The notes below the pieces were generated by a model. That model ran no database searches and had not been told where the DNA came from. It saw nothing but the letters and a program-made list of their open reading frames with translations. From an uncultured Chlorobiaceae bacterium (GTDB lineage: Bacteria; Bacteroidota; Chlorobiia; Chlorobiales; Chlorobiaceae): 40,270 bases of DNA. This document shows, piece by piece, positions 7,039 to 25,115 of the stretch. Position numbers and translations under genes: made by a program. Every line of letters starts with the position of its first letter. The first letter of the stretch is position 1. The stretch spans positions 1 to 40,270 of the forward strand of contig CAJAJL010000112.1 in the NCBI GenBank assembly GCA_903940125.1. Reading direction: 5' to 3'.

Positions 7039-7734
7039 CTACACCACAGTTCCAAAGAGCTTTCCAACTCCCGCCGTAATCCCCATAGCGAGCACTCCCC
7101 AAAAGGCAACCCGCAAAGCACCCTTGGCAACAGATGCGCCTCCAGCGTATGCCGCCGTACCTCCCAGAACCACTAAAGTGACCAGAGCCGTAGCGGATAA
7201 TACTTCGACAATATTGGCTGAAGGTGCCAGTAAAACCGCTGCAATCGGAATAATTGCACCTGCAACAAAAGAGATGGCGGAAGCCAATGCTGCCTGGATC
7301 GGCCTTGCCCGCAGAGTCTCCGTAATGCCAAGTTCATCCCTGACATGAGCAGCAAGAGCATCTTTCGACATAAGGCTGACTGCAACAAGCCGTGCCATAG
7401 GTTCATCAAGACCCCTGCTGACATAAATCGACGTCAGCTCCTCCAATTCACGCTCTGGTTCAGTTGCAAGTTCCCTCTTTTCTCGCTCGATGTCCGCCTC
7501 CTCGGTGTCCGCTTGCGATTGTACAGACACATACTCGCCCGCAGCCATAGACATGGCACCAGCCACCAGACCAGCCACACCTGTTAACAGAATACTCTGT
7601 TGTGGAACACCGGCAGCGGCAACGCCGATAACAAGACTTGCAACCGATATGGTTCCGTCATTTGCTCCAAGGACGGCAGCTCGAAGCCAGCCTATGCGCT
7701 CGGCTTTGTGTGACTCACTGTGCATGGTTGACAT
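7039..7734 (-). CDS. VIT/CCC1-family Fe/Mn transporter-like membrane protein
   Basis: The ATG at 7734 is preferred because AGGAGA stands eight bases upstream. The 231-residue product matches the VIT1/CCC1 family, which exports or stores ferrous iron and manganese. The N-terminal segment WLRAAVLGANDGTISVASL is characteristic. It is followed by a hydrophobic stretch with GLVAGAMSMAAGEYVSV, then a charged cytoplasmic loop with many Glu residues (EEADIEREKRELATEPERE) that forms the metal-binding domain in this family. Three further hydrophobic segments make up the C-terminal half. About five membrane helices are expected. Direction of transport and metal choice cannot be read from sequence. Confidence 0.9.
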   Translation of the reverse strand: MSTMHSESHKAERIGWLRAAVLGANDGTISVASLVIGVAAAGVPQQSILLTGVAGLVAGAMSMAAGEYVSVQSQADTEEADIEREKRELATEPERELEELTSIYVSRGLDEPMARLVAVSLMSKDALAAHVRDELGITETLRARPIQAALASAISFVAGAIIPIAAVLLAPSANIVEVLSATALVTLVVLGGTAAYAGGASVAKGALRVAFWGVLAMGITAGVGKLFGTVV

Positions 7735-7956
7735 CAAATAATTCTCCTGTTGTTCATCTTTTGATTACAATAATTACAATATAAAATCATAACCTGTTCA
7801 CGTTATATAGCATCAATTTCAGATTTCAATAGTTGAAAAAAATTGATATACTCTAACATATTATAATCGAAATCATTACATATTCTGTCACAGCAAGGGC
7901 ACCTGCCGGTATACTCTATTTTTTTTCTGGTCTCTGGTGTTAAAATCAATAAAAAA

Positions 7957-8592
7957 ATGAAGGTTATAGCAATCAACGGAAGTCCCAAAAAGGACGGAAA
8001 TACCTGTCATGCGCTGACAGGTGTAGGAAGGCAGCTGCAGGAAAACGGTATTGAATTTGAAATTATACATGTCGGCGGCAAAGCGGTCAGAGGATGCATG
8101 GCCTGCGGAACATGTGCAAAAAATAAAGATGAAAAATGCAGCATAACTACCGACCCGGTCAATGAATGGATTCAGCAGATAAAAGATGCTGACGGCATCA
8201 TTCTTGGTTCACCGGTTTACTATGCGGGCATTGCAGGTACTATGAAATGTTTTCTCGACAGGGCATTTTATGTTGCAGGAGCAAATGGTGGTCTGTTCCG
8301 ACAGAAAGTTGCCGCAGCAGTTGTTGCTGTTCGCCGTACAGGAGGTTCTGCCACATTCGACAGCCTCAACCATTATCTGACCTATTCCGAAATGATTCTT
8401 GCAACCTCGAATTACTGGAACATCACTCATGGCAGAACACCGGGTGAAGTATTGCAGGATGGCGAAGGAGTGCAGATTATGGATGTCCTCGGACGCAATA
8501 TGACCTGGCTACTCAAAATGCGTGAAGAAACAAAAGACTCAATCCCGCCACCGGCAAAAGTTGACAAGATCTACACCCACTTTATCAGATAG
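7957..8592 (+). CDS. iron-sulfur flavoprotein / NADPH-dependent FMN reductase-like protein
   Basis: The 211-residue protein has the flavodoxin-like FMN-binding start AINGSPKKDGNT (residues 5-16) and the second flavin loop GSPVYYAGIAGTMK. Between them lies a compact cysteine motif, CMACGTCAKNKDEKC (CX2CX2CX7C), as in iron-sulfur flavoproteins (Isf) that bind one [4Fe-4S] cluster beside FMN. It probably moves electrons between ferredoxin-like donors and small oxidants such as oxygen or peroxide, but the physiological acceptor is unknown. It lies just upstream of the large hdr/flx operon but is separated by 282 bases and is probably transcribed separately. No strong Shine-Dalgarno is visible at the ATG. 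Confidence 0.85.
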   Translation: MKVIAINGSPKKDGNTCHALTGVGRQLQENGIEFEIIHVGGKAVRGCMACGTCAKNKDEKCSITTDPVNEWIQQIKDADGIILGSPVYYAGIAGTMKCFLDRAFYVAGANGGLFRQKVAAAVVAVRRTGGSATFDSLNHYLTYSEMILATSNYWNITHGRTPGEVLQDGEGVQIMDVLGRNMTWLLKMREETKDSIPPPAKVDKIYTHFIR

Positions 8593-8874: not shown

Positions 8875-10383
8875 GTGTCAAATAACAAGATGACAGAATC
8901 GGATGCCCTGAAGCATCAGCTTGAGGAGTCTACAGGCAATGACTATAACTGCTGCTACCAGTGCGGTAAATGCACGGCTGGCTGTCCGGCGGGAACATTC
9001 ATGGATAATCCTCCAGCCCGTATCATGCGTCTGGTACAGGCCGGATATATGGAAGAAGCGCTGAAAAGTGATGCACTCTGGTACTGTCTGGGCTGTCAGA
9101 CCTGTACGTCGCGATGTCCCCAGAATATGGAGATTGCTGCCACCATGGACTCTTTAAGAGCTCTGGCACTTGAAAAAAATATTATTTCCACAGACAAGGC
9201 AAAAAAGCTGGTCAATGCCTTTCATCTCTCTTTCCTCAACAACATCCGTAAACACGGCCGTCTGGAGGAACTTTCACTCGTCAACAGCTACAAACTCCGC
9301 ACCAGATCCTTTCTGCAGGATGCCGCATCCGGCGTCAAGATGATCAGGGAAGGAAAGATAAACCCCATGCATACCCTTACCGGCAAAGGCGGGGTAAAAG
9401 CAAAAGATCAGATTGCCAGAATTTTTGAAGCCTCCGAAAAGCCATCGCATCAATCGTTACCAAAACGACGCCCCGTTAAAAAAGAGTTTAAACCTAAAGC
9501 CCCCCTGTCGATCAAACCTGGCATGACCATAGGCTACTATCCAGGATGCTCGCTCAGCGGCACAGCTAAGGAATTTGATATTTCGGTTAAAAAAATGTGT
9601 TCCCTGCTCGATATTAAACTGCAGGAAATCGATGACTGGAACTGCTGCGGAGCAACTTCGGCCCATGCCACCAACCACAAGCTTTCTCTGCTTCTGCCTG
9701 CAAGGAATCAGGCTCTTGCTGATGCTCAGGGAATGACTTGTGTCCTTGCACCTTGCGCAGCCTGCCAGAATCGTCAGGTAACTACCCGGCAAGCCCTTAT
9801 GGATTCAGCTGAACTTCGTGAGGAAGTTCGTTCCATTACCGGAATAGAACCAACCTGCACTGCTGAATTTATCGGTGTGACGCAGCTTCTTGAAGCGATG
9901 GACCCCGGGGAAATTAAAAAAAGAGTCACCAAACCTCTCACAGGAATTAATCTTGCGTGCTATTATGGCTGCCTTCTGGTTCGCCCTATGGAGGCGATGG
10001 GGTTTGACGATACAGAAAACCCGCTCAAGATGGAGGCAATCATGACTGCTCTTGGAGCGACACCTGTTGAGTGGGCATTCAAAATAGAGTGCTGCGGAGC
10101 AGGTCTCACCCTGGCCCAGCAGCCGCTTGTCGAAGAACTTACACACAAGATTGCAAAAAATGCCTTGGCGAACGGTGCTGAAGCATTTGTCGTAGCCTGT
10201 CCTCTGTGCCATTCCAATCTTGACATGCGTCAGGAAAGCATGAGAAAACGGTTCGGAGATGTTAAACCCATGCCTGTTTACTATATTTCAGAACTGGTTG
10301 CCATCGCCTGCGGAGCCAATCCATCTGAAGTTGCAGTGGGTAAACATTTTGTTCCCGCACTCGATCTGGTTTCGAAACTTTAA
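8875..10383 (+). CDS. fused HdrC-HdrB subunit of a heterodisulfide reductase-like complex
   Basis: The protein is 502 residues from a GTG start, or 497 from the ATG at 8890. The N-terminal HdrC-like part (1-90) has two [4Fe-4S] motifs, CYQCGKCTAGCP (27-38) and CLGCQTCTSRCP (71-82). After a linker (about 100-215) come two CCG domains typical of HdrB: C225, C257-C258-G and C294-x-x-C297, then C362/C366, C406-C407-G and C442-x-x-C445. In HdrB these hold two non-cubane [4Fe-4S] clusters at the disulfide-reducing site. HdrB and HdrC are separate proteins in methanogens and in the Desulfovibrio flx-hdr cluster, so the fusion is notable. It is the first gene of the hdrCB-hdrA-flxD-flxC-flxB-flxA operon. 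The true disulfide substrate (DsrC trisulfide or another thiol) is not shown by sequence. Confidence 0.9.
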   Translation: MSNNKMTESDALKHQLEESTGNDYNCCYQCGKCTAGCPAGTFMDNPPARIMRLVQAGYMEEALKSDALWYCLGCQTCTSRCPQNMEIAATMDSLRALALEKNIISTDKAKKLVNAFHLSFLNNIRKHGRLEELSLVNSYKLRTRSFLQDAASGVKMIREGKINPMHTLTGKGGVKAKDQIARIFEASEKPSHQSLPKRRPVKKEFKPKAPLSIKPGMTIGYYPGCSLSGTAKEFDISVKKMCSLLDIKLQEIDDWNCCGATSAHATNHKLSLLLPARNQALADAQGMTCVLAPCAACQNRQVTTRQALMDSAELREEVRSITGIEPTCTAEFIGVTQLLEAMDPGEIKKRVTKPLTGINLACYYGCLLVRPMEAMGFDDTENPLKMEAIMTALGATPVEWAFKIECCGAGLTLAQQPLVEELTHKIAKNALANGAEAFVVACPLCHSNLDMRQESMRKRFGDVKPMPVYYISELVAIACGANPSEVAVGKHFVPALDLVSKL

Positions 10384-10527
10384 ACAATAACAGGTATACT
10401 GTTGGATATCGGTGATTGTAAAAGATCATCGTAACAGACAATGCATCCGTGACTATTTGTTCCGGCTCTCAGCACCATCTTATTGAGCTGCCGTCGTTAT
10501 GGCGGTTTCATATTAAATGATTGTATT

Positions 10528-12498
10528 ATGGCGAAAATAGGGGTATTCATTTGTCATTGCGGCGAAAACATAGGCGCTAAAGTAGATTGCACGAAACTGG
10601 CAGCTGCCATGGGTGAACACCCGGGTGTTGCGGTTTCGGTGGAGTACAAATATTTTTGTTCTGATCCGGGCCAGGAAAGCGTTAAAAGAGCTATCCGCGA
10701 AAATAACCTTACCGGTGTGGTTGTCGCAGCCTGCTCTCCAAGAATGCACGAAGCCACATTCCGCAAAGCATGTGCCGAAGCTGGACTTAACCCCTATTTA
10801 TGTGAAATAGCAAATATTCGCGAGCAGTGCTCATGGGTGCATACCGATAATGGCCAGGCGACTGAAAAAGCCATGGACATCACCCGTTCGATGGTTGAAA
10901 AAGTTAAACGCAACAATAAACTGCAGCCTATTGAGGTACCTGTCACCCGTCGTGCCCTGGTTATCGGAGGGGGAATTGCAGGAATTCAGGCGGCACTCGA
11001 CATTGCCAATGCGGGTCAGGAGGTTGTACTCGTTGAGCGTGAGCCCTCCCTTGGCGGACACATGGCTCAATTGTCGGAGACTTTCCCTACGCTCGATTGC
11101 TCTCAATGCATCATGACCCCAAGAATGGTCGAGGCAGCTCAACACCCAAAAATCCGGCTGCTTACCTATTCAGAAATTGAAAGCGTTGACGGTTATATCG
11201 GGAACTTTTCGGTCAGGGTCCGCATGAAATCGCGCTACGTTGATATAGATAAATGTACCGGCTGCGGCGACTGCATAACGAAGTGCCCTGCAAAAAAAAT
11301 CTCAAGTGAGTTCGATTGTGGTCTTGGAAAACGAACAGCCATTTATACCCCTTTTGCACAGTCTGTCCCAAATATTCCAGTTATCGACAAAGCTAACTGT
11401 ATCTATTTCAAAAACGGGAAATGCAAAATCTGTTCTAAAACCTGCCAGTGCAGTGCTATCGACTTTGATATGCCGGACACCTTTGTGGATCTTGAAATCG
11501 GCGCAATAGTGGTTGCGACAGGGTTCCAGGTTCAAAACAACACCATGTACGGCGAATATGGTTACGGAACATATCCTGATGTCATTAACGGGCTCCAGTT
11601 CGAACGTCTTGCTTCAGCAAGCGGTCCGACAGCAGGAAAAATCCAGCGTCCTTCGGATGGAGCCGAACCGCAGACTGTTGTCTTCATACAGTGTGCAGGA
11701 TCTCGTGACCCGTCAAAAGGAGTGCGTTATTGTTCTAAAATCTGCTGCATGTACACTGCCAAGCACGCCATGCTTTATGCCCATAAGGTTCATGGAGGAA
11801 AAACCCATATTTTCTATATGGATATCCGTGCAGCAGGCAAAGGATACGACGAGTTCAGCCGAAGGGCAATTGAGGAGGATGAAGCGGCATATCTACGCGG
11901 CAGGGTCAGCAAAGTATGGCAGGAAAACGGCAAACTGATGGTAAGAGGCGTTGACACCCTTCTGGGCAGACCTGTTGAAATAGCGGCTGATATGGTGGTA
12001 TTGGCAACAGCAATAATTGCACAGCCTGATGCGAAAGATTTTGCCAAAACCATTGGTATCGGTTATGACGAATACGGATTCTACAACGAGGCGCATCTTA
12101 AACTCCGCCCTGTCGAATCATCCACGGCTGGCGTTTTCCTTGCTGGAGCCTGCCAGTCCCCGAAAGATATTCCCGATTCGGTTGCCCAGGCATCGGCCAC
12201 GGCAAGTAAGGTACTTGCTCTTTTCAGCAAGGATATGCTTGAAAGAGAGCCGGTCGTTGCGACAAATAATGAAGCAACCTGCGCCGGGTGCTGGGGTTGC
12301 GTACTTGCCTGTCCCTACAATGCTATCGAGCAGAAAGATATTCTCGACCGTTCAGGACGAATCATCAAACGGGTGGCATCTGTCAATCCAGGACTTTGTC
12401 AGGGCTGCGGCACCTGTGTCACCTTCTGCCGTTCAAACAGTCTTGATTTGGCAGGCTTTACCGAAAAACAGATCTTTGCAGAAGTGATGGGTCTCTGA
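10528..12498 (+). CDS. hdrA: HdrA, FAD and Fe-S subunit of heterodisulfide reductase-like complex
   Basis: The start MAKIGVFICHCG at 10528 fits HdrA family N-termini; a longer frame from 10483 adds 15 unlikely residues. The 656-residue product has an N-terminal domain with conserved Cys, a FAD-binding Rossmann motif (VIGGGIAGIQAALD, about 145-158) and the loop LDCSQCIMTPRM. A ferredoxin insertion follows (CTGCGDCITKCP, about 243-254), then a further Cys cluster (CKICSKTCQC) and a C-terminal pair of [4Fe-4S] motifs (CAGCWGCVLACP and CQGCGTCVTFC). In HdrA the FAD is the bifurcation centre that splits electrons between the HdrBC branch and ferredoxin. The gene follows hdrCB after a 144-base gap and precedes flxD. 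Confidence 0.93.
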   Translation: MAKIGVFICHCGENIGAKVDCTKLAAAMGEHPGVAVSVEYKYFCSDPGQESVKRAIRENNLTGVVVAACSPRMHEATFRKACAEAGLNPYLCEIANIREQCSWVHTDNGQATEKAMDITRSMVEKVKRNNKLQPIEVPVTRRALVIGGGIAGIQAALDIANAGQEVVLVEREPSLGGHMAQLSETFPTLDCSQCIMTPRMVEAAQHPKIRLLTYSEIESVDGYIGNFSVRVRMKSRYVDIDKCTGCGDCITKCPAKKISSEFDCGLGKRTAIYTPFAQSVPNIPVIDKANCIYFKNGKCKICSKTCQCSAIDFDMPDTFVDLEIGAIVVATGFQVQNNTMYGEYGYGTYPDVINGLQFERLASASGPTAGKIQRPSDGAEPQTVVFIQCAGSRDPSKGVRYCSKICCMYTAKHAMLYAHKVHGGKTHIFYMDIRAAGKGYDEFSRRAIEEDEAAYLRGRVSKVWQENGKLMVRGVDTLLGRPVEIAADMVVLATAIIAQPDAKDFAKTIGIGYDEYGFYNEAHLKLRPVESSTAGVFLAGACQSPKDIPDSVAQASATASKVLALFSKDMLEREPVVATNNEATCAGCWGCVLACPYNAIEQKDILDRSGRIIKRVASVNPGLCQGCGTCVTFCRSNSLDLAGFTEKQIFAEVMGL

Positions 12499-12550
12499 AA
12501 AGAGCTTTTCGTTATGCTGAACAACAGAACTTTGCTACAGGAGTTAGCCT

Positions 12551-13000
12551 ATGAGTGAACCTTTCGAGCCGAAAATCATAGCTTTTGTCTGCACCTACTG
12601 TACGTATGCGGGCGCCGACCTTGCCGGAACCAGCCGGTTGAAATATGCGCCTAATGTGCGCATTATCCGTCTTCCGTGCACAGGAAGAATCAGTCCTATG
12701 TTTATCTTGAAAGCTTTACAGAAAGGAGCTGACGGAGTACTGATAAGCGGATGCCATCCTGGAGACTGCCATTTTACCCATGGTAACTACCACGCTCGAC
12801 GCAGGTGGATGGTCTTTCGTGCCCTGCTTGACTTTATAGGTATACCACCCGAACGGGTCAAGTACTCATGGATCAGTGCGGCTGAGGGAGTAAAATTTGC
12901 TGAATTCATAAACACCGTCACTGAAGACATCCGCAAACTTGGCCCTTTTGAACAATACAGTCAGTTGATCGAGCAAACCCAGGCATCGGCATCACTATAA
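12551..13000 (+). CDS. flxD: FlxD/MvhD-like [2Fe-2S] electron transfer subunit
   Basis: The 149-residue protein belongs to the MvhD family (methyl-viologen hydrogenase delta subunit). Typical segments are FVCTYCTYAGADLAG near residues 12-26, RLPCTGRI, SGCHPGDCHFTHGNY near 76-90, and WISAAEGVKF. The conserved Cys residues hold a [2Fe-2S] cluster. In the Hdr complex this subunit docks on HdrA and feeds it electrons from the input module, which here is the Flx proteins because no hydrogenase genes follow. A good Shine-Dalgarno (CAGGAG) lies before the ATG. The gene is tightly packed between hdrA and the next Fe-S gene. Confidence 0.92.
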   Translation: MSEPFEPKIIAFVCTYCTYAGADLAGTSRLKYAPNVRIIRLPCTGRISPMFILKALQKGADGVLISGCHPGDCHFTHGNYHARRRWMVFRALLDFIGIPPERVKYSWISAAEGVKFAEFINTVTEDIRKLGPFEQYSQLIEQTQASASL

Positions 13001-13010
13001 AAAACACGGA

Positions 13011-13841
13011 ATGAGTATCGAGGAACAATACAGAACGAGGGCAAAGGAACTTCTTTCAGGCGGTGCCGTCAAAATGGTTATCGGCTATGGCAAAGGCACA
13101 ACCGCCAGCCGACGTCGTCCGCTCTTTATCAGTTCACCTGATGATGTCGAACGGCTTGTACTTGATGATGCCTGCATAACCAACCTCTCCGGATATCTTG
13201 TCAGTGAAGGCCTTCTGAGCGATGAAAAACGTGTAGCTGTTTTTCTCCGGCCTGAAGGAATACGTGCTGTAAATATTCTTGCAGCTGAATCGCAGCTTGA
13301 TGCTGAGCAGATTGTTATTTTTGGATTTGATGTCAGCGGGACCGAAGTCCGTGCGTTGAAAGGCATCCATGTCGAAGAGTTTTCGGATGTCATTGGATCG
13401 ATCAAGGAGGGTGCTCCTGAAGCTTCCGAAGAAGAACTTTTTGAAAAAATCGAAAAGATGAGTCCGCAGGAGCGGTTTTCTTTCTGGCAGGAGGAGTTTG
13501 CAAAATGCATCAAATGTTATGCATGCCGCCAGGCGTGCCCTATGTGCTACTGTCGTCGCTGTATTGTCGACAGCAATCAGCCGCAATGGGTCAATACCTC
13601 TTCACATTCCCTCGGAAATTTTGAATGGAACATTGTCAGGGCATTTCACCTTTCCGGACGCTGTGTCGAATGCGGCAACTGTGATCGTGCATGTCCGGTC
13701 AACATTCCACTTCGTCTCATCAACCACAGAATGGCTGAGGAGGTACTTGGGGCATTCGATCACTTTGCCGGCATGAGCAAAACCCAGGAACCGGTGCTTG
13801 CCAGTTTTAAAAAAGACGATTCCGAGACATTCATTCTCTAA
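13011..13841 (+). CDS. FlxC-like iron-sulfur protein of the Flx-Hdr complex
   Basis: The 276-residue protein has a two-part build. The N-terminal 160 residues show no cofactor motif. The C-terminal part has two cysteine motifs, CIKCYACRQACPMCYCRRC (about 165-183) and CVECGNCDRACPV (about 218-230), suited to two [4Fe-4S] clusters, the first with extra Cys. In Desulfovibrio two such Fe-S proteins (FlxB and FlxC) link the NAD(P)H-oxidising FlxA to FlxD. The gene order here mirrors flxABCD, which places this one in the FlxC position. Spacing to flxD is 10 bases. The B versus C assignment rests on order only. Confidence 0.78.
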   Translation: MSIEEQYRTRAKELLSGGAVKMVIGYGKGTTASRRRPLFISSPDDVERLVLDDACITNLSGYLVSEGLLSDEKRVAVFLRPEGIRAVNILAAESQLDAEQIVIFGFDVSGTEVRALKGIHVEEFSDVIGSIKEGAPEASEEELFEKIEKMSPQERFSFWQEEFAKCIKCYACRQACPMCYCRRCIVDSNQPQWVNTSSHSLGNFEWNIVRAFHLSGRCVECGNCDRACPVNIPLRLINHRMAEEVLGAFDHFAGMSKTQEPVLASFKKDDSETFIL

Positions 13842-13854
13842 GTAACAAACCTGT

Positions 13855-14868
13855 ATGACAAAAATCCTTTTCAGCGATAAACTTGACAAGTGTGTCGAAC
13901 GATGGAAATCAGCTGGTTTTACCGTTATCGGCCCTGTACAGCGAGCCAATATTTCAACATATGCAGCTGTTGAACATGCTGCCGAATTAGAGTTTGGACT
14001 TATTCTGCCCGACCGTTCTATCAAGGATTTGTTCTTTCCGCAGAGTGAACCGATGTTGCGTTATACCATAAAAAAAGAATCCATCGACACCGATGAGTGC
14101 CTGCCTCCTGTCGGGCCGAGAATTATTTTTGGTGCACGACCCTGCGATGCCTCAGGGATGGCGATTGACGATCCCCTGTTTGGATGGGACTATAAGGATG
14201 AATACTGGTTTCAGAGACGCAATGAATCGGTTATTGTAACCATTGCATGCACAAAAGCAGATGATTTCTGCATGTGCACATCTCTTAAAATGGCACCCGA
14301 CAGCTGCAAAGGCTCCGATATTCTGCTTCGGCCACTTGCCGGCAACAAGGGATGGCAGGTTGAGGAATTGACTGACCGCGGACGCGAAGCGTTCAAAACA
14401 ATTGCCGATCTCCTCCAGGAAAGCTCCGAACAGGCTGCTCCTATAGCGGTCGTTGAGAAAAAGTTTGACCTTGACGCCTGTGTCGCCTGGCTGCAGAATC
14501 CAGAACATTTTGAAAGCAGATTCTGGAAAGAGATATCGATGCGCTGTATAGGTTGTGCCTCCTGCACCTACCTCTGTCCCACCTGTCACTGTTTTGACAT
14601 CCAGGATGAAGGTGATACCTACACCGGCATCAGACGAAAAAACTGGGACAGCTGCTCATTTGCTCTTTTTACCATGCACACCTCAGGCCATAACCCCCGA
14701 TCAACCCAATCGGCCAGATGGCGTCAGCGAATCATGCACAAATTCAATTATTTTCCTGGCAAATTCAGTGTGAACAGCTGCAGCGGATGCGGTCGGTGCT
14801 CACGCCAGTGCCCGGTTGACATGGGAATTACCGAGACCTTACAAGAGATATCAAAATTATCGCTGTGA
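13855..14868 (+). CDS. FlxB-like iron-sulfur protein (sulfhydrogenase beta-type)
   Basis: The 337-residue product resembles the beta subunit of sulfhydrogenases and anaerobic sulfite reductases, a 4Fe-4S dicluster protein. The segment GARPCDASGMAIDDPLF (about 82-98) is typical of that family. Two C-terminal Fe-S motifs follow: CIGCASCTYLCPTCHCFD (about 231-248) and CSGCGRCSRQCPVDMG (about 305-320). It would relay electrons between the flavoprotein FlxA and the Hdr module. It begins 13 bases after the previous gene, and its stop overlaps the GTG start of flxA (GTGA), so translation is probably coupled. Confidence 0.8.
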   Translation: MTKILFSDKLDKCVERWKSAGFTVIGPVQRANISTYAAVEHAAELEFGLILPDRSIKDLFFPQSEPMLRYTIKKESIDTDECLPPVGPRIIFGARPCDASGMAIDDPLFGWDYKDEYWFQRRNESVIVTIACTKADDFCMCTSLKMAPDSCKGSDILLRPLAGNKGWQVEELTDRGREAFKTIADLLQESSEQAAPIAVVEKKFDLDACVAWLQNPEHFESRFWKEISMRCIGCASCTYLCPTCHCFDIQDEGDTYTGIRRKNWDSCSFALFTMHTSGHNPRSTQSARWRQRIMHKFNYFPGKFSVNSCSGCGRCSRQCPVDMGITETLQEISKLSL

Positions 14869-15731
14869 CAGAAAACATCCACAACACACAACAGAACATC
14901 TACAAGCCGGCCATCATGAAAATTGTGGCCCGCCACGACGAAGCGCCAGGCGTAAAAACCATGAGACTTGAGTTTCAGGATCCGATTGACCATCAGTTTT
15001 TCAAGGAAACATTCCGTACCGGTATGTTCGGACTCTACGGTGTATACGGTGAGGGAGAGAGCACCTTCTGTGTCGCAAGCCCTGAAACACGCAAGGATTA
15101 TATTGAATGCACCTTCCGCCAATCAGGCAGGGTGACTTCGGCGCTTGCAAATGCTGATATCGGCGACCTCATCACTTTCAGGGGGCCCTACGGCAACCGC
15201 TTTCCTATTGAGGAGTTTCATGGCAAAAATCTTCTTTTCATATCAGGCGGAATTGCCCTTCCTCCAACAAGGAGCGTCATATGGTCATGCCTTGACCAGC
15301 GCGAAAAATTCGGCAGGGTCACTATTGTTTACGGAGCCCGTACCGTGGCAGATCTGGTGTACAAGCATGAACTGGAAGAGTGGCAGGAACGAAGCGATGT
15401 CGATCTTGTCCTGACAGTTGATCCTGGTGGAGAGTCGCCCGACTGGAAAAACAGGATTGGCTTTGTCCCCACGGTGCTCGAGGAGGCTGCGCCATCTCCG
15501 GATAACTGCATTGCGGTAATTTGCGGCCCCCCGATCATGATCAAATTCACTCTGATCTCGCTCAAAAAACTTGGTTTTGATGAATCAAACGTCTTTACAA
15601 CGCTTGAAAACAGAATGAAATGCGGTCTTGGTAAATGCGGTCGATGCAATGTCGGCTCGGTCTATGTGTGCAAGGAGGGACCAGTCTTTACAGCTGCGGA
15701 GGTCTCCCGAATGCCGGCATCCGATTTATAG
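14865..15731 (+). CDS. flxA: FlxA-like FAD/NAD(P)-binding oxidoreductase subunit
   Basis: The 288-residue protein starts at GTG in an overlap with the gene before it. It is a ferredoxin-NADP reductase-fold protein of the PyrK/HydG/AsrB type. The FAD-binding segment is TFRGPYGNRFP (about 104-114), the nucleotide-binding segment LLFISGGIALPPTRS, and the C-terminal CGPPIM precedes a [2Fe-2S] motif (CGLGKCGRCNVG, then C at YVCKEG). It should oxidise or reduce NAD(P)H and pass electrons to the Fe-S partners and on to HdrA. It closes the operon. Its last six bases overlap tail-to-tail with the end of the murB-like gene on the opposite strand, leaving no room for an intergenic terminator. Confidence 0.88.
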   Translation: MTENIHNTQQNIYKPAIMKIVARHDEAPGVKTMRLEFQDPIDHQFFKETFRTGMFGLYGVYGEGESTFCVASPETRKDYIECTFRQSGRVTSALANADIGDLITFRGPYGNRFPIEEFHGKNLLFISGGIALPPTRSVIWSCLDQREKFGRVTIVYGARTVADLVYKHELEEWQERSDVDLVLTVDPGGESPDWKNRIGFVPTVLEEAAPSPDNCIAVICGPPIMIKFTLISLKKLGFDESNVFTTLENRMKCGLGKCGRCNVGSVYVCKEGPVFTAAEVSRMPASDL

Positions 15732-17354
15732 CAGAGCGATTGTATAGAATCGCTCCGGCTGATGAAAATCGGCCGGAGCTGAGGATGCTTCCCACCAGGG
15801 AAACAAACCATACTCTCCCCTTCCGGTAGATGCACAGCACTGCAAAGCGATACGCTGACCAGTTAAGAATGGCTCCAGCAGTTTATAGGAAAACTCCATC
15901 CCGAAACTCCTGTCGCTCATCACCATCCTGACCTGCCCCATCCATGGTTCAGCGGAAAGAACTGTCTGCCCTCGAGCCCTTCTTCTCGGAGTATCGAATT
16001 GCAAAGCAACCCAGTGCCCCTCTGGAGTCATTTCAAACTCAAGATAACCGACGACGGAATCGGTATGCGCAATAAAAAGTTCTGAAACCCCATATCTCCA
16101 AAGTCCATCAGTAAACGTGCCCGCAGGAAGAGTCGAAGGTGGCTTCAGTGAAAATAGAGCAGGATTGCCATTACTGGTTGTCCAGCGAAGAAAAGATGCG
16201 TCCGGGGCAGCGATGGCCTCCTGAATCGAAAGCAGTTGTTCGACGGCAACAAAACCACCGGAAAGCCATTCCCTGTTGTCAACACAGTTATAAGCCAACA
16301 GAAGCCCCTGAAGAAGAACCTCTGGAAAAAGCTGTGCCGGAATTTCCGCGTTATTGTTCATCTCCTGCTGTGGTAACCATAATAGCCCGGCCCATCCCTT
16401 GGAAGGGTCATTAACATCTGCAACACTTTTCACTCCGCATGCTTCAAGAAAATTTCCATCAAACAAGCCGATGCACTGCACCTCCAGATCAAGTTGTACA
16501 CCAGCCTCTTCAAGTGCTGCAGTTTTCATCTGTTCGGCAAGGCGGAGCACATCAGTTGCAGTTGCTCCCCCCATGTTGAAAATGAAATTTGCATGGTGTT
16601 CGCTGACCATCGCTCCCCCTTCCCGCCGCCCTTTGAAACCCAATTCTTCAAAAATAGTGCCACTCGAACGACCGGACGCATAGTTGTTCTTAAAGGTGGA
16701 ACCACAACTCGGAAAATCGAAATGATGCTTTTTTGTGCGCTCCTCCTCATATCTATGCATAAGATCTTTGATCTCCTCTGCGGAGCCGGATTGTGGAAAC
16801 CGAAGCACAACAGCAACAACAATCTCGGGATAGTCCATCAGTGAGGTATGCTTGTAGCCATGAAAAACCTCATCAGGGGTCTGCCAGCGCAGCCGTCCGT
16901 CAAGAGAAACGGTCTGGATACCAGCTGTAACTTCAGAAATTTCACCTCCAAAACATCTGGCATTCATTCTGACCGTCGATCCTATAGTACCCGGAAGTCG
17001 AAAAAGCCACTCTCCCCCTGCACGGCAGCATGAAAGCAGCTCATCGGCAATCAAAGTGTTGTCTGTACCGGCTTCGCAAAAAAGTTCATCATCCGATATC
17101 CAGAATATCCGCCGCATAAAGTCTAAAGAGATCACAACACCAGGAAAAAAGGTATCGGAAAAAAGAATATTGCTCCCCTTTCCCATGAGTGCTAAAGGAA
17201 GACGATGCTCCCTGTTCCACTCGAGAAGATCGGCAATTTCGGCAGGAGTCTGGGGGTGAGCAAGGAAACGGGCTGTACCACCGATCCCGTAATATGCCCG
17301 TGAAGCAAGAGAAACATTGGATTCGAATCTACAGGGAAGGGATAATTCACTCAT
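15726..17354 (-). CDS. murB: UDP-N-acetylmuramate dehydrogenase (MurB) with extra C-terminal CBM9/DOMON-like domain
   Basis: The protein has 542 residues, whereas usual MurB enzymes have about 300-350. Residues 1 to about 310 are a type II MurB that reduces UDP-GlcNAc-enolpyruvate with NADPH and FAD in peptidoglycan synthesis. Motifs are YYGIGGTARF, MGKGSNILFSD, the FAD loop LPGTIGSTVRMNA and CGSTFKNN with the active-site Ser. Residues from about 315 to the end are an added region with DGLWRYGVSELFIA, GYLEFEMTPEGHWVALQFDTP, RIALQCC and an end with PADFHQPERF. That layout is like DOMON or family-9 carbohydrate-binding modules seen beside glycan enzymes. No signal peptide is seen. The fusion reads as one uninterrupted frame. 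The identity of the added domain is an inference. Confidence 0.88.
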   Translation of the reverse strand: MSELSLPCRFESNVSLASRAYYGIGGTARFLAHPQTPAEIADLLEWNREHRLPLALMGKGSNILFSDTFFPGVVISLDFMRRIFWISDDELFCEAGTDNTLIADELLSCCRAGGEWLFRLPGTIGSTVRMNARCFGGEISEVTAGIQTVSLDGRLRWQTPDEVFHGYKHTSLMDYPEIVVAVVLRFPQSGSAEEIKDLMHRYEEERTKKHHFDFPSCGSTFKNNYASGRSSGTIFEELGFKGRREGGAMVSEHHANFIFNMGGATATDVLRLAEQMKTAALEEAGVQLDLEVQCIGLFDGNFLEACGVKSVADVNDPSKGWAGLLWLPQQEMNNNAEIPAQLFPEVLLQGLLLAYNCVDNREWLSGGFVAVEQLLSIQEAIAAPDASFLRWTTSNGNPALFSLKPPSTLPAGTFTDGLWRYGVSELFIAHTDSVVGYLEFEMTPEGHWVALQFDTPRRRARGQTVLSAEPWMGQVRMVMSDRSFGMEFSYKLLEPFLTGQRIALQCCASTGRGEYGLFPWWEASSAPADFHQPERFYTIALL

Positions 17355-20327: not shown

Positions 20328-20556
20328 CGGATAGTTTCATATTGCCGGCACTGGTAATAAAAGAGCTTGTTTATTCCAACGCAGGTAAGATAAGTTTAAG
20401 CTCTCTGTGAATCAAAGTTTCGTTTCAAATTTGGCTATTCATCCTGTAAACCCGGTAAATCATATTTTTAAAAATGGCTGGTCAGTTTCAAAAAACTTTT
20501 CCTACCTTGTCTCATTCGTTGTAACCATTTTTTATACTTATTGCAGATTCCCGGGT

Positions 20557-21966
20557 ATGCAGACTTTACCATCAGACGCTCTCTTTTCATCGCTTGATCC
20601 CGCCTCCGTTTCTTCAGAGGAACTTCTTCATCAGCTCGCAGCACAGCAAAAGTCACGCAAGAAATGGCTGTTGATCCAGCCGATCAGCAACACCAGCATG
20701 ATGGTTGATTCCGGAACGGTCAGCATGCCTTTAAACCTGATCATGGTTGCAACCCTTGTGGGCAAACTGTTTGATGTCACCTTCATTGACGAACGGCTTG
20801 GCGACAAAATACCTGAGGATTTTTCCGGCTTTGACATTGTAGCCATCACTTCCCGTACACTCAATGCATCCAAGGCATATCGGATAGGCGATGCCGCTCT
20901 CCGTCAGGGAAAAACCGTGATTCTTGGAGGTGTTCATCCCACCATGCTTCATAATGAGGCATCACAACACTGCACGAGTGTCGTTTACGGTGAAATAGAA
21001 TCGATATGGACAGAACTTGCCACTGATGTAATGACAGGAAAAATGCGGAGCATTTACAGGGCAAAAGAGCTTAAGCCGATGAGCACCATGCTCCACCCTG
21101 ATTTCAGCTATGCCCTTTCTTCCAAAAACTCCAAAAAATACAGTTCCCGGATCCCGCTTCTTGCTACGAAAGGCTGTCCGGTAGGATGCAACTTCTGTAC
21201 GACACCGACGGTCTACGGAAAAAGCTACCGCTATAGAGAACTTGATCTTGTGCTCGATGAAATGCGTTATCATCAGCAGAGAGTCGGCAAGGAAAAAGTC
21301 AATTTTTCCTTCATGGACGACAATATCAGTTTTCGTCCGAAGTATTTCATGACCCTGCTTGAAGAGATGGCAAAGCTCGGTGTACATTGGAATGCCAATA
21401 TTTCCATGAATTTTCTCGATAAACCCGAGGTTGCCGAACTGGCCGGTCGTTCTGGATGCGACCTGCTCAGCATCGGGTTTGAGTCTCTTAATCCCGAGAC
21501 GATCAAGAGCGTCCAGAAGGGATCAAACCGGCTCGGCAGTTATGAAACGGTTGTAAGCAATCTGCATAAAAACGGTATAGCCATTCAGGGGTACTTCATG
21601 TTCGGCTTTGATAATGATACGGAGGAAAGCTTCCAGCTTACCTACGATTTTATTATGAAAAACCAGATCGAGTTTCCCGTGTTTTCTTTAGTCACGCCAT
21701 TCCCGGGAACACCGTATTTCGATGAAATGAAGTCCCGCATACGCCATTTCGACTGGGACAAGTACGATACCTACCATTACATGTTTGAGCCGAGTAAAAT
21801 GAGCGGTGAAAAACTGCTTGAAAACTTTGTCAAGCTTCAGCAAGAGGTCTATAAAGGCCGTGCGATTCTGCAGCGTATGAAGGGTAAACCGCTGAACTGG
21901 GTCTGGCTGGCCAACTACGCCATGAACCGATTTACCAGCAAACTCTCTCCTGGCTATTTTTACTGA
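20557..21966 (+). CDS. B12-binding-domain radical SAM protein (BchE/BchQ/BchR-like)
   Basis: The ATG at 20557 gives a 469-residue protein; an upstream GTG at 20407 would add 50 residues that do not look conserved. The N-terminal 160 residues form a cobalamin-binding-type Rossmann domain (FDVTFIDERLG, FDIVAITSRTLNASKAYRIG, VILGGVHPTMLHNEA), although the classical DxHxxG is not seen. The radical SAM core has CPVGCNFC at C207, C211 and C214. Such proteins include BchE, which forms the isocyclic ring of chlorophylls, and BchQ/BchR, which add methyl groups at C-8 and C-12 of chlorosome bacteriochlorophylls. The position in a cluster with bchU supports a pigment-methylation role. I cannot decide between bchQ, bchR and an unassigned paralogue. 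Confidence 0.82.
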   Translation: MQTLPSDALFSSLDPASVSSEELLHQLAAQQKSRKKWLLIQPISNTSMMVDSGTVSMPLNLIMVATLVGKLFDVTFIDERLGDKIPEDFSGFDIVAITSRTLNASKAYRIGDAALRQGKTVILGGVHPTMLHNEASQHCTSVVYGEIESIWTELATDVMTGKMRSIYRAKELKPMSTMLHPDFSYALSSKNSKKYSSRIPLLATKGCPVGCNFCTTPTVYGKSYRYRELDLVLDEMRYHQQRVGKEKVNFSFMDDNISFRPKYFMTLLEEMAKLGVHWNANISMNFLDKPEVAELAGRSGCDLLSIGFESLNPETIKSVQKGSNRLGSYETVVSNLHKNGIAIQGYFMFGFDNDTEESFQLTYDFIMKNQIEFPVFSLVTPFPGTPYFDEMKSRIRHFDWDKYDTYHYMFEPSKMSGEKLLENFVKLQQEVYKGRAILQRMKGKPLNWVWLANYAMNRFTSKLSPGYFY

Positions 21967-22096
21967 CAACCAATTTTTTAAACTCAACGCAATACTCATC
22001 AACAACCGTTGCCGTTTCCGCCGATCAATCTTCAGTATTGATCATTTATCTACGAATTATGTTTCGCGTAGCTTGCCGTAAAGATTTCGTAGAGAT

Positions 22097-22124
22097 TTGA
22101 GTATGGGTTTTAGTAAGATATAAA
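22097..22124 (+). promoter_or_regulatory. candidate promoter for the ArsA-bchU leader
   Basis: TTGAGT (22097-22102) and TATAAA (22119-22124) are spaced by 16 bases, close to the sigma-70 pattern. A transcript from here would start near 22131 and meet the hairpin at 22259-22288 before reaching the ArsA-like gene. Confidence 0.35.
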
Positions 22125-22258
22125 GTAGTTTTCAGCCTTTCGAACAATGATAATCCACTCAAAGAGATGAGTGTGATAATTTCATAGAGAAAGCTTCTTT
22201 GTTGCTGGCGCCTTATGGCACGACTGACGTTAATAACAGGTTTCTTGCTTTAGGTAAT

Positions 22259-22288
22259 GAAAGCTGAGCATGAGCTTTCTGTTTTTTT
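22259..22288 (+). terminator. rho-independent terminator-like hairpin in the leader of the ArsA-like gene
   Basis: GAAAGCT (22259-22265) and AGCTTTC (22273-22279) form a perfect 7-bp stem with a 7-base loop, followed by TGTTTTTTT. The upstream gene ended nearly 300 bases earlier, and the next start codon is at 22316. It is therefore better placed to end a leader or small RNA than the upstream mRNA. Confidence 0.6.
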
Positions 22289-22315
22289 CTATGTAATTTC
22301 TTCAAAAAAGTATTC

Positions 22316-23539
22316 ATGAGGATTTTAACCTTTACAGGTAAAGGCGGGGTTGGTAAAACCAGTGTTTCCGCGGCTACTGCTGTCCGGTTGTCTCAGATAG
22401 GCTATCGTACCCTTGTTCTCTCGACCGATCCAGCTCACAGCCTTTCGGATTCGTTCAACCTGCCTCTCGGCTCTCAACCGACAAAAATCAAGGAAAACCT
22501 TCATGCTATTGAGGTCAACCCCTATGTTGACCTTAAGGAAAACTGGCAGTCTGTCCAGAAGTTCTATACAAAAATTTTTATGGGCCAGGGCGTTTCCGGA
22601 GTTATGGCCGACGAAATGACCATCCTGCCCGGAATGGAAGAACTGTTTTCCCTCTTACGGATAAAACGCTATAAAGCTTCCGGTCTGTATGATGTTCTTG
22701 TGCTCGATACGGCACCGACAGGCGAAACCTTAAGGCTTCTCTCTCTCCCTGACACCCTTGCATGGGGTATGAAGGCGGTGAAAAATGTCACAAAATATAT
22801 CATCAAGCCATTGAGTAAGCCTCTTTCAAAGATGTCCGATAAAATCGCATTTTATATCCCGCCTGCAGATGCTGTTGATTCTGTGGATCAGGTTTTTGAT
22901 GAGCTTGTCGATATCCGCGAAATTCTTACGGACAATAATAAATCGACCGTGCGTCTGGTCATGAATGCTGAGAAAATGTCCATCAAGGAGACTATGCGTG
23001 CACTGACCTATTTGAACCTTTACGGCTTCAAAGTAGATATGGTGCTTGTCAACAGACTTCTGGATACAAAAGAAAACAGTGGATATCTGGAGAAGTGGAA
23101 AACAATTCAGCAGAAATACCTTGGTGAAATTGAGGAGGGCTTCTCTCCCCTTCCGGTTAAAAAACTCAGGATGTACGAAAAAGAAATTGTCGGCCTCCAG
23201 TCGCTTGAGTTGTTCGCTAAAGACATGTATGGCGATACCGATCCATCAGATATGATGTATGACGAACCGCCTGTCAAGTTTATCCGCAATGGTAATGTCT
23301 ATGAGGTGCAGTTGAAGCTGATGTTTGCAAATCCTGTCGATATCGACGTCTGGGTAACCGGCGATGAGCTCTATATTCATATTGCTAATCAGCGTAAAAT
23401 TATTACTCTTCCGATTAGTCTGACGGGTCTTGAACCAGGGGAAGCATTCTTTAAAAACAAATGGCTGCACATTCCCTTCGATCTTAACCAGCATGATCAG
23501 AACCATCAGCGCAAGGATTATGACAAGGTATTGAACTGA
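22316..23539 (+). CDS. ArsA/Get3-family ATPase with C-terminal HSP20-like domain
   Basis: The 407-residue protein starts with the deviant Walker A motif GKGGVGKTS (8-16), followed by VLSTDPAHSLSDSF and the A-loop DTAPTGETLRLL typical of ArsA/Get3 ATPases. It has one ATPase domain, not the tandem pair of plasmid ArsA. Residues from about 318 to 395 form a small beta domain (VKFIRNGNVYEVQLKL to KWLHIPFD) like the ArsA HSP20-type domain. No arsenite pump or ArsR gene is nearby, so arsenic resistance is unlikely. Between two radical SAM genes and bchU, a role in handling or inserting pigment enzymes or chlorosome proteins is more plausible, though that is inference. Confidence 0.88.
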   Translation: MRILTFTGKGGVGKTSVSAATAVRLSQIGYRTLVLSTDPAHSLSDSFNLPLGSQPTKIKENLHAIEVNPYVDLKENWQSVQKFYTKIFMGQGVSGVMADEMTILPGMEELFSLLRIKRYKASGLYDVLVLDTAPTGETLRLLSLPDTLAWGMKAVKNVTKYIIKPLSKPLSKMSDKIAFYIPPADAVDSVDQVFDELVDIREILTDNNKSTVRLVMNAEKMSIKETMRALTYLNLYGFKVDMVLVNRLLDTKENSGYLEKWKTIQQKYLGEIEEGFSPLPVKKLRMYEKEIVGLQSLELFAKDMYGDTDPSDMMYDEPPVKFIRNGNVYEVQLKLMFANPVDIDVWVTGDELYIHIANQRKIITLPISLTGLEPGEAFFKNKWLHIPFDLNQHDQNHQRKDYDKVLN

Positions 23540-23670
23540 TCAATTATCAATAAATCATTCAACAATTTTAAGAAACTATGAGCTCATATCTACCCTGAAA
23601 CGCATGAGTTAACCGTGATGCTACTTTTTTTATTTATTGATCACAATTGATTTAAACCAAGAACTCAAGC

Positions 23671-25056
23671 ATGAGCAACCCTGAACCTCCTCGTATTAAA
23701 CCCCTCAAAATTCTCCTCATCGCCCCGAAAGGGAAAAAAGACTCGAAAAGCAACCAGAAGCCATTGTTTAATATGGCTATAGGTGTTCTGGTAAGCCTGA
23801 CTCCGGCACAACATCATATTGAAATTGTTGATGAACATTTTGGCGACCCCATAAATTATGATGGTAATTACGATTTTGTAGGCATAACGTCACGGACAAT
23901 TGATGCAACAAGAGGCTATGAAATTGCTGACAGGTTTCGGAAAAAAGGAACAAAAGTCATGCTTGGGGGATTGCATGTTTCCTTTAATACTGAAGAAGCC
24001 AGACCCCATGCTGACTGCATCGTTTGCGGGGAAGCAGAAAACCTCTGGTTGACCGTTCTTGAAGAGGCGGCTTATAACCGCTTAAAACCACTCTACGACT
24101 CCAAAGATTTTCCGCCGGTAAAAGAGATCATTCCGATTGATTACGAACGTATTGCGAAATTCTCAAAACGGGAAAAAGTTGATGGAACAAAATCTATCCC
24201 TATTTATGTAACTCGCGGTTGCCCTTTTGAATGCTCATTCTGCGTTACCCCGAATTATACTGGAAAACTCTACAGGAGCCAAAAACCTGAAGAGCTCAAA
24301 AAACAAATTGAAATCGCTAAAAAGGTTTTTTTTAAACCGAAAGGAAAGTCATCAAAACCCTGGTTTATGCTGACTGACGAAAACCTTGGTGTCAGCAAAA
24401 AGAAGTTATGGGAAGCTCTTGATCTGATTAAAGAGTGCAATATCAACTTCAGCGTCTTTTTCAGCATCAATTTTCTTGAAGACAAGGAGACGGTCAAGAA
24501 ACTTGTTGATGCTGGGTGCATCATGGTGCTTGTGGGTTTCGAGTCCATCAATCAAAGCACCCTTGAAGCCTACAATAAAGGCCATGTCAATTCAGCGGAG
24601 AAATATTCGCGATTGATTGAAGAGTGCCGTCAGGCAGGCCTGAATGTTCAGGGTAATTTTCTGGTCAATCCTGAGCTGGACAGTTTCGAAGACATGGATA
24701 ACCTGGTAAAGTTTGTGGGTAAAAACAGTGTGTTCATGCCTATTTTTCAGATTATTACTCCCTACCCCGGAACATCAATGTACTGGGAATACAAGAATAA
24801 CGGATGGATTACCAACGAGGACTGGGAAAAGTATAACGCCATGAATCTTGTTATCCGTTCAGAGAAATACGACGCTGTTGAGTTTCAGCATAAATTCATG
24901 AAAAGCTATTACAAGGTTTACTCATGGAAAAATATTGTCAACAGGGTAAGACGCAACCCCTATAAATTACTCAACCTGGTCACAAGTCTGGCTTTCCGTA
25001 CCAACCTTCGGGAACAACTGGATACTTTCGAGAAAGATAACAACATCAAACAATGA
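23671..25056 (+). CDS. B12-binding-domain radical SAM protein (BchE/BchQ/BchR-like), second copy
   Basis: The 461-residue protein has a cobalamin-type Rossmann N-terminus ([48 protein letters not shown]) and the radical SAM motif CPFECSFC at C184, C188 and C191. Later segments [15 protein letters not shown] and [15 protein letters not shown] are typical of the BchE-like family. It is a paralogue of the protein at 20557-21966: both share the order of motifs and the phrase GI-SRT in the cofactor domain. It is 59 bases upstream of bchU on the same strand. A methyltransferase or cyclase step on bacteriochlorophyllide is likely. Which carbon it acts on cannot be read here. Confidence 0.82.
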
Positions 25057-25115
25057 TCTCGTCATCTGTCATTATTTACAATGCTTTTTTTTAACTATTA
25101 AGCCTTCCATCCATT

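Follow-up and report, generated by a model that had tools for sequence, protein, structure and literature searches.

Desulfovibrio vulgaris has a FlxABCD-HdrABC complex (Ramos et al., 2015, as outlined in PMC4759654 and PMC10084766) that shares an NAD(P)H-binding FlxA, a sulfhydrogenase- and MvhD-like middle section and HdrABC with an operon in the stretch of DNA analyzed here, 40,270 nucleotides of a contig from an uncultured Chlorobiaceae bacterium (GCA_903940125.1, CAJAJL010000112.1; hereafter the window). As far as those papers describe the D. vulgaris system, the present locus differs from it in that hdrC and hdrB are fused, the host is a phototroph, the operon is also conserved in genomes lacking DsrC, and no adh gene lies beside it in the window. 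Methanogen HdrABC-MvhAGD and HdrABC-Fdh complexes (5odc, 7bkb) also have relatives here, with HdrA, HdrB, HdrC and MvhD all represented and their cluster ligands kept, but the input module is of the sulfhydrogenase-type NAD(P)H kind rather than a hydrogenase or an F420 formate dehydrogenase. To our knowledge, neither CoM nor CoB is expected in a Chlorobiaceae host. HdrC-HdrB fusions are known elsewhere, with HdrC preceding HdrB in one chain both in these and in HdrD of methanogen HdrDE; the domain order here is alike, but the fused chain is encoded together with HdrA and Flx proteins, and the operon contains no HdrE. The beta and gamma subunits of sulfhydrogenase 1 (9nez, which we take to be from Pyrococcus furiosus) are relatives of FlxB and FlxA, respectively, although the operon lacks the hydrogenase alpha and delta subunits.

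The operon spans positions 8875-15731 and comprises six intact genes on the plus strand in the order hdrCB-hdrA-flxD-flxC-flxB-flxA (Table 1). Family matches for all six confirm the full Flx-Hdr gene set and order given in a preliminary description of this DNA: HdrA, HdrB, HdrC and FlxA-D are encoded together, with HdrB and HdrC as one chain. The flxB and flxA genes overlap by 4 bases. The TTG at 10483 is an alternative hdrA start but probably lies too far upstream, because translation from the ATG at 10528 gives a protein that aligns from its residue 3 onward with residue 5 of 5odc_A. No hydrogenase genes were found behind the operon or among the window proteins scanned, and the gene following flxA is the opposite-strand murB, in agreement with the earlier statement that no hydrogenase follows. 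FlxA presents FAD- and NAD(P)H-binding features and the operon encodes no hydrogenase catalytic subunit, which supports the earlier suggestion that NAD(P)H is probably the partner; the phototrophic host proposed at that time is likewise supported, with bchU in the window pointing to a green sulfur bacterial origin. A scan of the window against Rfam returned 0 families at the gathering threshold, and no tRNA genes were found in it.

Table 1. Genes of the operon and neighboring features in the window.
Gene	Position	Strand	Start	Family or similarity	Product
hdrCB	8875..10383	+	GTG	CCG and Fer4 dicluster families	HdrC (~residues 1-190) and HdrB (~217-502) in one chain; carries two [4Fe-4S] and two noncubane cluster motifs and is presumed to reduce the disulfide
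hdrA	10528..12498	+	ATG	HdrA2/HdrA families	FAD protein with inserted and C-terminal ferredoxin domains; presumed bifurcation site
flxD	12551..13000	+		FlpD/MvhD family	MvhD/FlpD-like electron-transfer subunit
flxC	13011..13841	+		Fer4 dicluster family	Two-cluster ferredoxin-like subunit
flxB	13855..14868	+		Sulfhydrogenase beta (HydB)/AsrA-like	Fe-S subunit
flxA	14865..15731	+		Sulfhydrogenase gamma (HydG)/AsrB/PyrK-like	FAD/NAD(P)H-binding, [2Fe-2S] subunit
murB	15726-17354	-			Next gene after flxA
bchU	25116-26135				Supports green sulfur bacterial origin

Inspection of the fused chain revealed both [4Fe-4S] motifs in the HdrC half (C27/30/33/37 and C71/74/77/81) and two CCG motifs in the HdrB half (C225...C257C258...C294xxC297 and C366...C406C407...C442xxC445). 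All these cysteines are invariant in 56/56 aligned sequences, and cluster cysteines do not vary among the Chlorobiaceae, corroborating the earlier claim of a single HdrC-HdrB chain with a complete complement of cluster cysteines. Structural relatives were identified for both halves, with E-values of 4e-15 for the HdrC half against 5odc_C and 2e-33 for the HdrB half against 7bkb_B. An AlphaFold model of HdrCB, of moderate confidence (mean pLDDT 65), has a weak HdrC half and a usable HdrB half, the latter matching HdrB structures with target TM values of 0.83-0.86. No ferredoxin-type motif is missing from HdrA, which also retains its flavin (FAD) domain and can be aligned over its full length with HdrA from the HdrABC-MvhAGD complex of methanogens (5odc_A, E 4e-204). 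FlxD, in which five cysteines are invariant in 51/51 sequences, resembles MvhD (9sw2_D, 5odc_D; E ~1e-44). FlxC matches FdhB (E 1e-23), its C-terminal part being similar to the Fe-S tail of the F420-dependent formate dehydrogenase beta subunits found in Hdr complexes, while FlxB and FlxA match the sulfhydrogenase 1 beta (E 1e-35) and gamma (E 4e-54) subunits of 9nez.

Comparative analysis revealed hdrCB in 84/86 Chlorobiaceae genomes, the two genomes without it being 87% and 66% complete, and as a single open frame in 55/55 Chlorobiaceae loci. The fusion is hence general in the family, and an assembly artefact is ruled out. The six-gene order is kept in 46/53 Chlorobiaceae loci, with contig ends in the other seven. 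Gene order was otherwise compared with that of 16 Bacteroidota loci (L084, L085, L150-L163); these operons follow the order hdrC-hdrB-hdrA-flxD-C-B-A, as in the window, and their HdrA proteins are 63-67% identical, but hdrC and hdrB are separate genes in 16/16 of them, so the fusion marks the Chlorobiaceae. We judge the fused HdrCB to be a variant of FlxABCD-HdrABC, in which separate HdrB and HdrC chains are typical but not strictly defining.

The sequences themselves show the fusion, the full set of parts with their cofactor ligands, their conservation and their occurrence independently of DsrC (see below); from these we infer complex formation, bifurcation, its direction and the substrate. 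We consider it probable (about 0.75) that the product of the operon is a soluble FlxABCD-HdrABC complex, with HdrC and HdrB in one chain, which connects NAD(P)H and ferredoxin with a disulfide. Judging by homology, a hydride from NAD(P)H would be passed to the FAD of FlxA, and electrons would then leave the FlxA [2Fe-2S] cluster and reach the HdrA flavin by way of the FlxB, FlxC and FlxD clusters. There the pair would be split, with one electron reaching ferredoxin via the HdrA ferredoxin domains and the other passing through the HdrC half to the pair of noncubane clusters in the HdrB half, where the disulfide would be reduced. The reverse reaction, in which reduced ferredoxin and thiols would yield NAD(P)H, is possible in principle and would fit a phototrophic organism in which reduced ferredoxin comes from the reaction centre. 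The need for such a confurcating route is not obvious, since a ferredoxin-NAD(P)+ reductase is already present in Chlorobium (Seo and Sakurai, 2002, as cited in PMC6282198). Bifurcation and its direction are predictions from homology, and the same parts could also accommodate an NAD(P)H-thiol or a ferredoxin-NAD(P)H route, so that the gene set alone is no proof of bifurcation. It nonetheless appears very unlikely that the enzyme is a thiol/disulfide oxidoreductase that uses NAD(P)H or ferredoxin without bifurcation: the family matches, the HdrA alignment and the conserved cysteines are all compatible with a simple electron chain, but HdrA has the flavin domain, every ferredoxin-type motif and the end-to-end match to its HdrABC-MvhAGD counterpart.

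For the bifurcating complex, the partner would be a disulfide common to all Chlorobiaceae, with DsrC a possible partner where present rather than the general one. DsrC has been proposed as the partner in D. vulgaris, where an interaction between it and FlxABCD-HdrABC is reported (Ferreira et al., 2023, as cited in PMC10504309), and in the present case it would couple NAD(P)H and ferredoxin to the oxidation of sulfur. The genome from which the window derives encodes dsrA and a DsrC bearing both C-terminal cysteines, so the DsrC pairing put forward in the preliminary description holds as a possibility for this organism; it does not hold as a rule. DsrC is absent from 24/86 Chlorobiaceae, 12 of these 24 genomes being at least 95% complete, and its role as general partner is weakened by the retention of hdrCB in 24/24 of them. 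Among the first 17 DsrC-less Chlorobiaceae, dsrA exceeded its cut-off in 0/17. The genome taken to be C. ferrooxidans lacks DsrC, and that taken to be Chlorobaculum tepidum has it. Likewise, 12/14 operon-bearing Bacteroidota have no DsrC over the cut-off, whereas a genome of the same order as the Chlorobiaceae (G050) has two DsrC matches and no operon, and we regard DsrC as an unlikely partner. A loop through fumarate seems most improbable. In it, thiols would be oxidized by the E-type fumarate reductase that serves the reverse TCA cycle, and Flx-Hdr would re-reduce the resulting disulfide, gaining reduced ferredoxin, by analogy with tubeworm symbionts; in symbiont rTCA gene clusters, flxABCD-hdrABC lies intermingled with korABCD and tfrAB (PMC6315080). 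The window's genome does contain clustered sdhABE genes, with an SdhE that resembles HdrB, but none of the operon's neighbors in the window was found to be an rTCA gene, and G050 has an HdrB-like match without the operon. SdhE-type anchors, moreover, usually face quinone.

N-methyl-bacillithiol is the low-molecular-weight thiol of Chlorobiaceae, and YpdA is the usual bacillithiol disulfide reductase. Because BshA is over its cut-off in 69/70 Chlorobiaceae and YpdA in 0/70, Flx-Hdr might stand in for the missing YpdA with N-methyl-bacillithiol disulfide as its partner, a reading that is tentative and, on balance, improbable. It would fit the order-mates G050 and G051, which have YpdA and lack the operon, and Chlorobaculum tepidum, a species in which deletion mutants have been made and whose N-methyl-bacillithiol occurs mostly in the reduced form, with no reductase for it named (PMC6282198). 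We keep it as a hypothesis because the profile does not extend past Chlorobiaceae: YpdA occurs in 5/14 operon-bearing Bacteroidota and, considering BshA-positive genomes, in 5/12 with the operon versus 13/28 relatives without it. Seven BshA-positive order-mates have neither YpdA nor the operon, two operon-bearing Bacteroidota have no BshA, the Chlorobiaceae pattern may reflect one evolutionary event, and thioredoxin reductase-like proteins remain as alternatives. The fuller proposal is that the fused-HdrCB complex of Chlorobiaceae reduces N-methyl-bacillithiol disulfide and, through flavin-based bifurcation or confurcation, couples the cellular thiols to NAD(P)H and the ferredoxin of photosynthesis; it is quite unlikely. 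If true, it would add a new class of Hdr substrate, since the enzyme would act on a disulfide of the bacillithiol type instead of CoM-S-S-CoB or DsrC, and any low-molecular-weight thiol substrate would connect the redox state of thiols with ferredoxin and NAD(P)H during anoxygenic photosynthesis.

Because nearly all members of this photosynthetic family have the complex and many of them lack the Dsr pathway, the family offers a clean test of the DsrC hypothesis. The Flx-Hdr substrate in DsrC-less green sulfur bacteria is a testable question, since the operon is carried there without its usually proposed partner. The genes themselves are probably already in print, given a C. tepidum cluster reportedly listed as hdrD-hdrA-orfs-hydB2-hydG2. 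No description of Flx-Hdr in Chlorobi was found in the portions of the literature covered by our searches, which took in neither Ramos et al. (2015) nor chapters in books about the genomes of green sulfur bacteria; the same searches returned no measurements of activity, complex formation or expression from any green sulfur bacterium.

Phylogenetic inference was performed on 51 HdrA sequences, comprising the window, 13 of the 55 Chlorobiaceae loci, 16 Bacteroidota and 21 other loci, with 6 further other loci left out for lack of a full-length frame. The tree places the Chlorobiaceae inside the Bacteroidota sequences, in one clade with the Bacteroidota operon genes (support 100). Horizontal transfer from Bacteroidales to Chlorobiaceae was considered and set aside, as monophyly of Bacteroidota was not rejected (AU p 0.0735). 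Regarding the flanks, ten hand-picked genes beside the Bacteroidota operons gave no consistent functional signal. Among the Chlorobiaceae, murB lies downstream on the opposite strand in 39/53 loci, and an FMN_red gene lies upstream of the operon only in eight close loci.

The operon is filled by six open frames, all on one strand, which Pfam and NCBIfam name as an HdrC-HdrB fusion, HdrA, an MvhD/FlpD protein, a dicluster ferredoxin-like protein and sulfhydrogenase beta-like and gamma-like subunits, with flxB and flxA overlapping by four bases. Sequence searches against solved structures matched HdrA to 5odc_A (E 4e-204), the HdrB part to 7bkb_B (E 2e-33), the HdrC part to 5odc_C (E 4e-15), FlxD to MvhD structures (E about 1e-44), FlxC to the Fe-S tail of formate dehydrogenase beta subunits from Hdr complexes (E 1e-23), and FlxB and FlxA to sulfhydrogenase 1 beta (E 1e-35) and gamma (E 4e-54). 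The HdrC and HdrB cluster cysteines are all invariant in an alignment of 56 Chlorobiaceae sequences, and cysteine motifs are kept in HdrA (n=51), FlxD (n=51), FlxC (n=50), FlxB (n=49) and FlxA (n=49). Names, structure matches and motifs thus bear out the preliminary description of a complete six-gene Flx-Hdr set with all cluster cysteines in the fused HdrCB; no hydrogenase genes follow, as it had also stated, since the next gene after flxA is murB on the opposite strand. In an AlphaFold model of HdrCB (15 input sequences, mean pLDDT 65) the second half resembles HdrB structures (target TM 0.83-0.86) and the model of the HdrC half is poor. The hdrA start appears better placed at an ATG than at the TTG of the mechanical ORF list, because alignment to methanogen HdrA begins at the third residue after that ATG. 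The presence of bchU in the window supports a green sulfur bacterial host, and the nearest named relatives of HdrCB are Chlorobiaceae.

Coordinates of the operon, its neighbours and a fumarate reductase locus of the same genome
Feature	Position	Strand
VIT-family gene (PF01988)	7039-7737	-
FMN-reductase-family gene	7957-8592	+
hdrCB-hdrA-flxD-flxC-flxB-flxA	8875-15731	+
hdrA start, TTG of ORF list	10483	+
hdrA start, preferred ATG	10528	+
murB	15726-17354	-
Radical-SAM/ArsA/bchU row	20407-26135	+
bchU (bacteriochlorophyllide C-20 methyltransferase)	25116-26135	+
E-type succinate dehydrogenase/fumarate reductase	L002:1495-3830 (contig G000:C97)	-

In two rounds of searching (49 Chlorobiaceae genomes plus 37 more, 86 in all), hdrCB was found in 84, in 82 of them aligned over nearly its full length in a single open frame; in G106 the alignment spans residues 108-499 of a 506-residue frame, and in G369 the gene is split between two contigs. 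The two genomes in which it was not found are G034 (87% complete) and G047 (66% complete). The fusion is present at 53/53 Chlorobiaceae loci, plus L164 and L165, and at none of 43 loci (25 + 18) from outside the family, among which HdrB is not clearly recognisable in L168 and L169 and the frame is broken in L105. Of these 43, sixteen (L084, L085, L150-L163), with 63-67% identical HdrA, share the gene order of the window's operon but carry hdrC and hdrB as separate genes ahead of hdrA-flxD-flxC-flxB-flxA. Being general in Chlorobiaceae and found at no outside locus, the HdrC-HdrB fusion is a family trait; assembly error, which the preliminary description had raised, is ruled out by these 84 genomes and 55 fused loci.

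HdrA was searched for in 394 Bacteroidota genomes and detected at E 1e-100 or better in 101. These are 82 of the 86 Chlorobiaceae and 19 others, 14 of them with 64-67% identical HdrA; none of the 12 genomes from other families of the same order is included. The four Chlorobiaceae missed at this threshold are G004 and G332, where hdrCB is present near a contig end, and G034 and G047. The full six-gene order is found at 46 of the 53 loci, the contig ending inside the operon at the remaining seven. In the HdrA tree, Chlorobiaceae form a single clade (support 100), joined with (support 100) and nested inside the Bacteroidota operon sequences, yet monophyly of Bacteroidota HdrA is not rejected (AU p 0.0735), so that transfer and vertical descent are both compatible with the tree. 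One genome (G220) holds two HdrA copies (contigs C10 and C99), each 89% identical to that of the window, representing duplication or mixed strains.

The preliminary description had proposed a thiol/disulfide pair such as DsrC, and the window's genome does have dsrA, together with a DsrC that retains its two C-terminal cysteines. No DsrC match was found, however, in 24 of the 86 Chlorobiaceae (17/49 and 7/37), including Chlorobium ferrooxidans (G007, identified through its contig coordinates, which match those of locus L059); all 24 carry hdrCB, and 12 are at least 95% complete. Three genomes with DsrC fragments only (G093, G196, G305) were scored as DsrC-bearing. In the first 17, dsrA was likewise not over the cut-off, indicating that the whole pathway is gone rather than one small gene overlooked. 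DsrC over the cut-off is also absent from 12 of 14 operon-bearing Bacteroidota, and G050 has two DsrC matches and no operon. DsrC may be the partner where present but cannot be the partner of the complex in general.

A different substrate is suggested by N-methyl-bacillithiol, which Chlorobaculum tepidum makes and holds mostly in the reduced state; it was found unnecessary for sulfur(0) oxidation, and the parts of that account available to us name no disulfide reductase for it (PMC6282198). Among 70 of the 86 Chlorobiaceae (G000-G048 and 21 of genus g25), BshA, a marker of bacillithiol-type thiol synthesis, was over the cut-off in 69 (48/49 and 21/21) and YpdA, the usual bacillithiol disulfide reductase, in none (0/49 and 0/21). 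Chlorobiaceae thus seem to be without the usual enzyme, a pattern that fits Flx-Hdr as the missing N-methyl-bacillithiol disulfide reductase. Against this, the 12 order-mates without the operon have BshA in nine and YpdA in only two (G050, G051), so YpdA and the operon can both be absent; and YpdA is found in five of the 14 operon-bearing Bacteroidota (BshA in 12) and in 13 of the 28 relatives that have BshA but no operon, giving no sign outside Chlorobiaceae that Flx-Hdr replaces YpdA. The Chlorobiaceae pattern may reflect a single event. A thiol-fumarate loop is a further possibility, by analogy with tubeworm symbionts, whose flx-hdr genes are described as interspersed with korABCD and tfrAB (PMC6315080): the window's genome has an E-type fumarate reductase. 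This enzyme, with an HdrB-like SdhE, adjoins hemE.

Homology predicts that NAD(P)H would reduce FlxA and that electrons would travel via FlxB, FlxC and FlxD to the flavin of HdrA, where they would be split, one share going to ferredoxin and the other to the noncubane clusters in the HdrB part. The D. vulgaris complex is described as coupling NADH oxidation to reduction of ferredoxin and a disulfide (DsrC) during ethanol oxidation, and as working in reverse during pyruvate fermentation (PMC10084766). The putative reverse direction, from ferredoxin and thiols to NAD(P)H, would be attractive in a green sulfur bacterium because light supplies reduced ferredoxin. The operon with fused HdrCB in a phototroph is confirmed, and its earlier interpretation is supported in part.

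The Flx-Hdr complex itself is of a known kind, its gene cluster having appeared, with hdr and hyd designations, in early descriptions of green sulfur bacterial genomes; a literature search, with subscription papers mostly outside its coverage, found no description of Flx-Hdr in Chlorobi. The apparently new points are the occurrence of the fusion throughout the family, the uncoupling of the complex from DsrC and the hypothesis of a bacillithiol-type substrate, and the main interest is that the substrate question of Flx-Hdr becomes testable.

Several neighbouring genes are also of note. MurB is 542 residues long, its Pfam MurB domains covering only about residues 30-295; the C-terminal extension of about 245 residues has no Pfam match and is kept in many Chlorobiaceae (matches extend to residue 541-542). 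The FMN-reductase-family gene directly upstream of hdrCB, perhaps an iron-sulfur flavoprotein given its cysteine-rich stretch, occupies that position at only 8/53 Chlorobiaceae loci, all close relatives, and the VIT-family gene, too, accompanies the operon only among close relatives. Further downstream lies a row of genes that may be a neighbourhood for bacteriochlorophyll tailoring: it encodes a pair of radical-SAM proteins, of which the second matches a B12-binding domain at a score under the Pfam cut-off, followed by an ATPase resembling ArsA/Get3 and by bchU.
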